13,124 nt of DNA, taken from NCBI GenBank assembly GCA_026388755.1, contig JAPLJE010000687.1, positions 1-13,124 on the forward strand, given 5' to 3'. Below the pieces are notes generated by a model. It saw nothing but the letters and a program-made list of their open reading frames with translations. It ran no database searches and was not told the origin of the DNA. Made by a program: the position numbers and the translations under genes. This document shows, piece by piece, positions 3,949 through 7,719 of the stretch. This stretch comes from Deltaproteobacteria bacterium (GTDB lineage: Bacteria; Desulfobacterota; Desulfobacteria; Desulfobacterales; Desulfatirhabdiaceae). The stretch's first letter is position 1; every line of letters begins with the position of its first letter.

Positions 3949-4369
3949 ATGAAAATTCGCTTCGCAGTCATAATCAGCATATTTGCCGTTTCTCTCATTG
4001 GCGTTTGCAGTGCCGGGGAAAAGAAGGAAATTCGTTTTCCTCGTGGCAGCACCTCAGTTATGATCGGAGGATGAGTTATCCGGGGGGAACGAGACTTGTA
4101 TTTTTTAACTGCAAACGCAAAACAGACGACGGAAATCAAAATATCCGCTTTGGAAGATAATGCGGTTTTCCAAATATATAAGCCGGGATATACGGTTTCA
4201 AAAAAAGATGGAATTACCGATATTGATGGCGAATCTCTTCCGGAGGCCGGTGAAACAAATGATGCCAAAGTATGGAAAGGCGTTCTTACCTGTTTCTGGT
4301 AAATATTTAATCGTTGTTGGCGGAACTCGCGGAAATGCCAATTACAAACTGAAAGTCGCAGTTCAATAA
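3949..4369 (+). pseudogene. Exported protein, broken by a stop codon and a frameshift
   Basis: ATG at 3949 opens a clear signal peptide (KIRFAVIISIFAVSLIGVCSA). The frame meets TGA at 4072 after IRFPRGSTSVMIGG, then resumes in the same frame as VIRGERDLYFLTANAKQTT and ISALEDNAVFQIYKPG up to a stop near 4300. The expected ending PVSGKYLIVVGGTRGNANYK continues in the next frame to TAA at 4367, so one extra base entered near 4288. Read through, the parts form one protein of about 140 residues of the type often seen as an exported beta-sandwich with 'RGERDxYxxxAxxGQ...GxYLIVVGGTRGNA' (pre-peptidase C-terminal-like). Two independent lesions make it a pseudogene. The TGA falls where a serine codon would be expected, not cysteine. 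Confidence 0.72.
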
Positions 4370-4377
4370 GCCTTATC

Positions 4378-4653
4378 GTGCAGCCTGGAGCTTTTCCTTC
4401 TGTCCCCACACCACCCGAGAAACTATGTAATGTTGACGCTGGGTGTGTCATAGAGCCTATCGATATGATGCGTGCCCTGAAATGTGATGGCTGCTACAAA
4501 TTGCGATTGGATGAAGCAAAGAAAGAAGGTCTGAAGATCCAACTGACAGGGGTGCCAACTTTTATTATCAACAATAAACAGAAAATTGTCGGGGCTCAGT
4601 CAGTAACGGTATTTACAGATCTTCTGGATAAGATCACAAAAGTTCAAGGTTAA
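4378..4653 (+). pseudogene. DsbA/FrnE-family thioredoxin-fold protein, C-terminal remnant
   Basis: From about 4486 the frame reads DGCYKLRLDEAKKEGLKIQ, then LTGVPTFIINNKQKIVGAQ and a final FTDLLDKITKVQG. The GVPTF segment with its cis-proline, followed by the GAQ strand and terminal helix, is the usual end of DsbA-like or FrnE-like oxidoreductases. The catalytic CxxC half of the thioredoxin fold is missing. The first ~36 codons of the frame (from 4378) do not resemble the family, and no ribosome binding site is evident. I take it as the tail of a deleted gene. Neighbours on both sides are also broken, and the one after it is another thioredoxin-fold gene, so the pair may once have been a redox cluster. 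Confidence 0.62.
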
Positions 4654-4704: not shown

Positions 4705-5137
4705 ATGAAACTGAATATCGGATCTATTGCCCCGGAGTTTGCTGCAAGCGATAGTAATGGCATCAAAATAAACCTTTCCAGCTTGATAAAAAATGGACCC
4801 GCCGTGCTTGTTTTTCTGAGGGGTTTCAGTTGACCATTTGCCAGAAAGCATCTGGGTCAGATGAAACAAGATATCAATCAATTTACAGATAGGAAAGCTC
4901 AGATCGTCGTGATTGCTTTGGGAGAAAGAAAACATTCCATTTATTGCTATTCCCGATCCTGATGAAACACTTGGAAAGCGCTATGGTCAGGGATGGAGCC
5001 TTATAAAACTGGGGCGGATGCCGGCACTGTTTATCATTAATCAGAAAGGCACCATTGCCTTTGCACAATATTCAAATAATATGGCTGACATTCCTGAAAA
5101 CGGCAAGCTGTTCCAGATTCTTGAAGGATTGAAGTAA
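4705..5137 (+). pseudogene. Peroxiredoxin-like redoxin with in-frame TGA at the catalytic Cys position (candidate selenoprotein), frameshifted
   Basis: ATG at 4705 has AGAGG seven bases upstream. The product begins MKLNIGSIAPEFAASDSNG and reaches VLVFLRGFS-TGA-PFARKHLGQM. In AhpC/TSA-like redoxins this site reads RGFxCPFCRxxL, so the TGA (4831-4833, codon 43) replaces the peroxidatic cysteine, and the second cysteine is alanine. A SECIS-like hairpin follows. If TGA inserts selenocysteine the protein would be a peroxidase acting on peroxides with thiol reductants. The frame then continues to VVIALG near 4920. The family ending WEKENIPFIAIPDPDETLG and RMPALFIINQKG is in the next frame to TAA at 5135. 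Family proteins have roughly ten more residues here, so a small out-of-frame deletion is inferred. A plain TGC-to-TGA nonsense mutation in a dying gene remains possible. Confidence 0.7.
4831..4863 (+). promoter_or_regulatory. Candidate bacterial SECIS element
   Basis: Fifteen bases after the in-frame TGA (4831-4833) CATCTG (4849-4854) pairs perfectly with CAGATG (4858-4863) around the three-base loop GGT. Bacterial SECIS hairpins lie directly downstream of the UGA, usually with 16-37 bases between UGA and the apical loop, and carry a G at the start of the loop (GGU in E. coli fdhF), where SelB binds. Here the loop starts 21 bases after the TGA and begins with G. No lower-stem extension is visible. 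Confidence 0.5.
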
Positions 5138-6990: not shown

Positions 6991-7131
6991 TTTTCGGTAC
7001 AATTTAAAGGGAATGAAAACGCCTGTAAGTTTTTACGAAAACGATACAGCATGTTACAGATTCATCATCCCAAGGGAAGTCTGTTTATCATTTCAACTTC
7101 AGTAAGTGAGAAAAATAAGGAACGCTCGAAT

Positions 7132-7707
7132 ATGAAAGTCGTAGCATTTAATGGAAGTCCGCGGGTAAATGGTAATACCTTGCAGAGTCTCAAAATTGTT
7201 TTGGCGGAAATAGCGAAGGAAGGAATAGAGACGGAAATCATCCAATTAGGTGGCCGTAAAGTTTTTGGCTGCTTGGCCTGTGGCAAATGTCGGGAAACTA
7301 AAGATAACCGGTGTTCACGCAAGGACGATGAGATGAATACTTTTATTCAGAAAATGGGAGAGGCTGATGGAATCATTATCGGTTCACTTACCTACTTCAG
7401 TAATGTGAGTTCGGAAGTGAAGGCCCTTATCGACCGTTACGGTTATGTTTCGAAGTCCAACGGAGGTGTAATGTTGAAGGGAAAAGTAGGCGCTTCAGTC
7501 ATTTCTGCCCGTAGAGCAGGCTCAACCTTTACCTACTCTGCCATCAACTTCTTCTTTGGTATAGCCGAAATGATCATTTGCAGTTCAAATTATTGGAATA
7601 TGACATTATCCCGTGATCCAGGCGATGTCCAAAATGATGCTGAAGGCATCCAAACGTTCCAAACCCTTGGTAAAAACATGGCAAAGCTCTTAAAACAGGT
7701 TCGGTAA
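7132..7707 (+). CDS. Flavodoxin-fold NAD(P)H-dependent FMN reductase family protein
   Basis: The 191-residue product starts MKVVAFNGSPRVNGNT, the phosphate-binding loop of the FMN reductase (PF03358) branch of the flavodoxin fold. GCLACGKC at 46-53, with a further cysteine at 61, is the cysteine cluster seen in many anaerobe members of this family, in some of which such clusters bind iron-sulfur centres. GSLTYFSNVSSEVKALIDR at about 92-110 corresponds to the second FMN-contact loop. It should move electrons between NAD(P)H, FMN and an unknown acceptor in the cytoplasm. The start at 7132 is preferred because AAGGA lies ten bases upstream and the motif begins at once; an in-frame reading from 7051 adds 27 residues without family similarity. 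It is followed after 12 bases by the DUF3795 gene. Confidence 0.88.
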   Translation: MKVVAFNGSPRVNGNTLQSLKIVLAEIAKEGIETEIIQLGGRKVFGCLACGKCRETKDNRCSRKDDEMNTFIQKMGEADGIIIGSLTYFSNVSSEVKALIDRYGYVSKSNGGVMLKGKVGASVISARRAGSTFTYSAINFFFGIAEMIICSSNYWNMTLSRDPGDVQNDAEGIQTFQTLGKNMAKLLKQVR

Positions 7708-7719
7708 TATGGAGGATCT

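Follow-up and report, generated by a model that had tools for sequence, protein, structure and literature searches.

The closest described systems to the locus analysed here are the peroxiredoxin-like (Prx-like) selenoproteins of the AhpC-TSA domain family (PF00578), which carry selenocysteine (Sec, U) and cysteine in a U-x-x-C motif and are given as Prx-like in the Sargasso Sea and GOS selenoproteomes (PMC1088965, PMC2398784). A "Prx-like thiol:disulfide oxidoreductase" is also included in a 2026 catalogue (PMC13188914), where its row lists UxxC and UxxU. In these sources many thioredoxin-fold selenoproteins have Sec paired with a nearby Cys, as UxxC or CxxU, and the UxxS, UxxT, and UxxV rows represent other selenoprotein families without the second Cys (PMC13188914, PMC2398784), so that Sec without a partner Cys already has precedents in print. 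The string "UxxA" has 0 occurrences in the text of PMC13188914, and no paper joining "UxxA" with "selenoprotein" was found in the literature search. The Prx-like U-x-x-C selenoproteins are therefore the already known group, and the U-x-x-A clade described below is a variant of them.

The window, by which the whole analysed stretch of 13,124 nucleotides of a Deltaproteobacteria bacterium draft genome is meant, contains at 4705-5137 what is very probably a disrupted copy of a selenoprotein gene belonging to a lone-Sec (U-x-x-A) clade of Prx-like, thioredoxin-fold oxidoreductases. The features of this region are as follows:

4378..4653, plus strand: C-terminal remnant of a DsbA-like gene directly upstream of the redoxin gene (PF01323, 27.3 bits, cut-off 25.6)
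4705..4917, plus strand: 5' part of the redoxin gene, 71 codons with the TGA as codon 43, N-terminal half of the AhpC-TSA/Redoxin domain
4831..4833, plus strand: in-frame TGA, kept in relatives, as the leading codon of U-x-x-A in the active-site motif RGFSUPFAR
4849..4854 with 4858..4863, plus strand: stem of a bacterial SECIS-like hairpin, with the loop GGT at 4855..4857
4916..4917, no strand: junction with 29 bases missing in comparison with relatives, ambiguous in its place by a base or so, which breaks the frame
4925..5137, plus strand: 3' part of the redoxin gene in a shifted frame, 70 codons and the stop at 5135..5137

The redoxin start codon is ATG at 4705, and the in-frame TGA at 4831-4833, reported in an earlier note on this DNA and confirmed here, is the sole stop of frame 1 within 4705-4917. 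The description of the redoxin frame as otherwise open in the same note proved to be wrong, since 29 bases are absent at about 4917 and frame 1 closes with TGA at 4960 and 4963, TAA at 5038, and more stops after it. The segment 4705-5137 comprises 433 bases, which is not divisible by 3; alignment with four relatives places the missing 29 bases at about 4916/4917, and 433 + 29 = 462 bases correspond to 153 codons and a stop, the same length as in orthologs. The two halves of the window gene are matched in different frames, the first by PF00578 (AhpC-TSA; E 2.7e-10, 40.7 bits, cut-off 26, the TGA being entered as C) and the second by PF08534 (Redoxin; E 1.1e-4, 22.4 bits, which is under the curated cut-off of 26.6). 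The orthologs from two genomes of the same genus, G001 (85% identical) and G005 (77% identical), are full-length frames with TGA at codon 43 and are continuous apart from it, whereas the frame of the window copy is not continuous. Because the 29-base loss after codon 71 breaks the frame, only the N-terminal part could be made from the window copy as assembled, and the full redoxin cannot be.

The 101-residue database protein P0002 begins past the TGA position, has the segment missing from the window, and, in a comparison made at protein level only, is identical to the window gene in 89/89 compared residues (19/19 and 70/70 on either side of the gap). Since P0002 is without the gap and the rest of the window gene is unchanged, the lesion, as read from these sequences, is recent, polymorphic, or an assembly error. 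That the living organism has an intact gene, the gap being an artefact of assembly or strain mixture, is a serious possibility, though it is held at somewhat under an even chance; it concerns the lesion only and is compatible with the family reading. The agreement with P0002 speaks for such an artefact together with the draft state of the genome (3.97 Mb in 839 contigs, 92.95% complete, 5.68% contamination) and with dN/dS, in which relaxed constraint was not seen (0.11–0.24 over both halves for the window copy against four relatives; 0.08–0.24 for the intact pairs, one of which is undefined), but the gap has 29 bases and is not a one-base slip, and the adjacent genes also look damaged. The latter, at 3949-4287 and 4378-4653, make the interpretation lean towards real decay.

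As to these neighbours, the frame at 3949-4375 of the window has a signal-peptide-like start, contains TGA in frame at 4072-4074, and changes frame farther on; a partial match to it was found in 1 of 56 other relatives (G006), and it is probably another damaged gene. In G005 a seemingly damaged DsbA-like gene is located on the same side of its redoxin (locus L156 on contig G005:C79, 4580-4993, minus strand); it gives 16.8 bits with PF01323, less than the cut-off of 25.6, and possesses the motif TGA-Pro-Phe-Cys with the TGA at L156 4991-4993. Judging from this motif, the gene may once have coded for another selenoprotein, of the U-x-x-C type, next to the redoxin. The DNA common to the window and one G005 contig is 78.6% and 89.4% identical, which supports the contig belonging to the genus. 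The higher value refers to window 7117-7708, within the FMN reductase gene 7051-7707, and to the G005 contig carrying the Sec-redoxin, and it indicates that the two regions share ancestry, though other genes lie between in the window.

The TGA codon itself is widespread among relatives. In the search of 57 genomes, including the own genome of the window, some match was found in 23, and 11 other genomes contained a near full-length match (E <= 6.6e-26) with one TGA inside each. From the 115 genome_contigs relatives the best 80 were used, and TGA was present at the same codon in 80/80, being read by the strict motif in 72 and separately in 8; by motif type these loci are divided into 20 U-x-x-A and 60 U-x-x-C. 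To the question raised previously, whether relatives have U or C at codon 43, these best 80 loci thus give TGA and not just Cys. In the class-wide scan of 389 genomes, matches were obtained in 133; TGA was inside 30/30 rows with E <= 5.6e-53, G125 having also TAA, and the strict motif was found in 26 of 29 fetched loci, with TGA at the same codon in those 26; L136, L137, and L152 lack the strict motif. Other Prx-like families account for the weaker matches of both the 57-genome search and the class scan; a single TGA is present in most of them and missing from some. Neither TGG nor a Cys codon was found at the Sec site among the loci with the motif read.

The hairpin downstream of the TGA was likewise found as previously described, with a perfect 6-bp stem CATCTG/CAGATG and a GGT loop at 4849-4863, starting 15 bases past the TGA. 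According to PMC13188914 the bSECIS model requires a small apical loop, G at its first two positions, and a distance of 16–37 nt between the UGA and the loop, and the window hairpin fits it (loop GGT, 21 nt from the TGA). The best evidence for the hairpin is codon choice. In 22 U-x-x-A/E/T sequences (alignment A5, without L062 and the U-x-x-S row L146) the stem codons are nearly invariable, with His CAT in 21/22, Leu CTG in 21/22, and Gln CAG in 18/18, while each of the four codons is used for Pro CCN after Sec (1.94 of 2 bits), and Gly GGN of the loop reaches 1.87 of 2 bits. The U-x-x-C stem is different (TGGCGC-AGTT-GCGCCA) and is paired at 6/6 positions in 57/64 sequences, at 5 in 5, and at fewer in 2; in 53 distinct U-x-x-C sequences (alignment A6 of 54 rows, without seven U-x-x-C loci lacking the strict motif, L103, L116, and the class-scan loci) its codons are Ala GCG in 52/52, Leu TTG in 52/53, and Gln CAG in 50/50, and Pro CCN has 1.82 of 2 bits. 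Codon bias is observed also outside the stems (Lys AAA 17/19, Cys TGC 50/53). Under synonymous reshuffling the hairpin has a mean z of -2.03 (n=23) and -2.64 (n=64), as against +0.30 and +0.26, respectively, in the next stretch; taken singly, 9/23 and 30/64 sequences have p < 0.05. These coding sequences indicate that the hairpin is under selection beyond the protein sequence.

Base-pair covariation in the stems was not significant, 0 and 1 pairs being changed on both sides, and it is uninformative because the stems hardly vary. The Rfam scan of the window matched no SECIS family and gave no match at the site. The possibility that the hairpin scores as background, named in the earlier note, is answered in part: the bSECIS model fit and the synonymous constraint are in favour of the hairpin, but on its own it is weak (-4.4 kcal/mol) and it is absent from the minimum-energy fold of the 54-base stretch in the window, other folds being better in several relatives too.

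It is very improbable that the locus is a plain pseudogene in which the TGA is an ordinary nonsense mutation and the hairpin is a by-product of the HLGQM peptide. The 29-base gap would be the second lesion of such a gene, and the damaged look of the 3949-4287 frame and of the DsbA-like remnant at 4378-4653 agrees with it; however, the same TGA codon in all of the best 80 of 115 genome_contigs loci, the synonymously frozen stem codons, and dN/dS well under 1 on both halves of the window copy stand against it, and it is contradicted by the intact orthologs with TGA.

The selenoprotein gene reading is also consistent with the Sec machinery of the window's own genome (G000), in which SelA (528.8 bits), SelB (379.8 bits), and tRNA-Sec (77.1 bits, anticodon TCA) were found. 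Of the four genes proposed for checking, selA, selB, and selC are thus present, and selD is unmatched in the draft (best 23.8 bits against a cut-off of 125); as selD is above the cut-off in 11/11 other relatives searched, its lack is taken for incompleteness of the draft. Taken together, the conserved TGA, the bSECIS geometry, the synonymous constraint, and the Sec machinery make the TGA appear recoded as Sec in the family, and at this level the earlier proposal of recoding stands, but it does not extend to a full protein from the window copy. Reading of the TGA as Trp (or another residue) instead of Sec can hardly be credited, for although W is at the site in database copies such as P0001 and WxxC is in 77 of the best 120 of 7471 proteins, the codon is TGA and never TGG in loci with the motif read, SelA, SelB, and tRNA-Sec with the TCA anticodon are present, and 13 database relatives have Cys at the site.

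Among the database proteins P0001-P0187 the family is represented by entries of about 101 residues without the RGF motif or by entries with W at the Sec site. In the set of 68 database proteins found, 43 are 101 residues long and only 1 has the RGF motif. The W at the Sec site probably comes from gene calling with a TGA=W code. Such truncated or W-bearing entries amount to a failure of annotation and keep the family out of sight in ordinary searches.

Three residues past the TGA the window has Ala, and the claim that the partner Cys is replaced by Ala, leaving a lone Sec, was right and holds for the whole clade. Besides Sec, 19 of 21 aligned U-x-x-A/E/T proteins are Cys-free, some of these rows being partial, and L050 and L106 have one Cys each. 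In the tree the 21 U-x-x-A/E/T proteins are on one side of a branch with a support of 91/83, and 20 of them are grouped at 100/99, with L106 apart; the labels of this clade are Thermodesulfobacteriota, Myxococcota, and Pseudomonadota, with Bacteroidota occurring once. Within the genus of the window, G000, G001, and G005 are of the U-x-x-A type and G002–G004 are of the U-x-x-C type, and in G006 a redoxin match was not found. The tree also contains 13 Cys-bearing database proteins, all on the U-x-x-C side, and the statement that no Cys form exists anywhere was rejected on their account. In the database protein search the 7999 candidates sharing most words were scored, and the best 120 of 7471 proteins, like the best 80 of 115 loci, are a selection that may not include U-x-x-A clade members with Cys if these are rare. 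A redoxin relative was not found in viral contigs. Within 1.5 kb of the 20 U-x-x-A loci, among ORFs of at least 90 aa, a common neighbour was found only between L062 and L066. It is rather probable that these proteins form a nearly Cys-free redoxin clade in genomes labelled as Thermodesulfobacteriota, Myxococcota, and a few other phyla, with the single Sec as the only redox residue and with a Cys-containing member unseen.

The AlphaFold2 model of the G001 protein has pLDDT 94.3 and pTM 0.90, and its closest solved structures are Bcp4, Bcp1, and AhpE. Profile alignments place Sec at the first Cys of the ResA CxxC and at Thr or Ser of the peroxiredoxin TxxC, with Ala at the position of the peroxidatic Cys, so that the model and the alignments predict a peroxiredoxin-like fold with a thioredoxin-position nucleophile. 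The term "peroxiredoxin" in the name given to the gene previously is a loose label, Sec being at the thioredoxin-type and not the peroxidatic position.

Several known groups can be compared with the window clade. With the Prx-like U-x-x-C selenoproteins it has in common the AhpC-TSA domain and the hairpin directly downstream, and in both Sec is first in a thioredoxin-like motif, whereas Sec peroxiredoxins have TxxU; it differs in having Ala (Glu or Thr in two) for the second Cys and in being usually Cys-free, while the sister clade has Cys. The BCP/PrxQ and AhpE peroxiredoxins have Cys at the peroxidatic position, where the window clade has Ala, its Sec being at Thr/Ser of TxxC. The classical peroxiredoxin arrangement, with Cys or Sec last in TxxC/TxxU, is likewise absent, since Ala is there in the Bcp-chain profile alignments. 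From the ResA-type thiol-disulfide oxidoreductases (sequence match E 1.1e-13) the first Cys of CxxC corresponds to Sec and the second to Ala, and the structural match is weaker (TM 0.75–0.76 by query length). The NCBIfam model NF040769 (SelL-related redox protein) matches 36/36 aligned members; it ranks highest among the models for the first of them, the G001 ortholog, which has, however, 63.1 bits and is below the curated cut-off of 120. The UxxU motif of SelL is absent from the window clade.

The hairpin 21 bases past the UGA would be recognised by SelB in intact relatives, and Sec would be inserted at codon 43, which is predicted to be the N-terminal, thioredoxin-type nucleophile position of the active-site helix. 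The motif without the second Cys, and usually with none elsewhere in the aligned protein, points to a monoselenol mechanism, in which Sec would attack a peroxide or a disulfide; the selenenic acid or mixed selenenylsulfide would then be resolved by a thiol from outside, be it that of thioredoxin, of a partner protein, or of a small molecule. On the basis of these motifs, monoselenol chemistry resolved by an outside thiol is likely.

In summary, the window holds no more than a member of the family that is damaged or mis-assembled, and the meaning of the finding is connected with the family. If the reading is true, gene callers cut the lone-Sec clade to a stub of about 101 residues beginning past the TGA, and searches based on Sec/Cys pairs tend to miss it. 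The clade would then represent a natural monoselenol enzyme wholly dependent on outside thiols, and, as a conserved and nearly Cys-free Sec clade, it would test selenium chemistry without a built-in resolving thiol.
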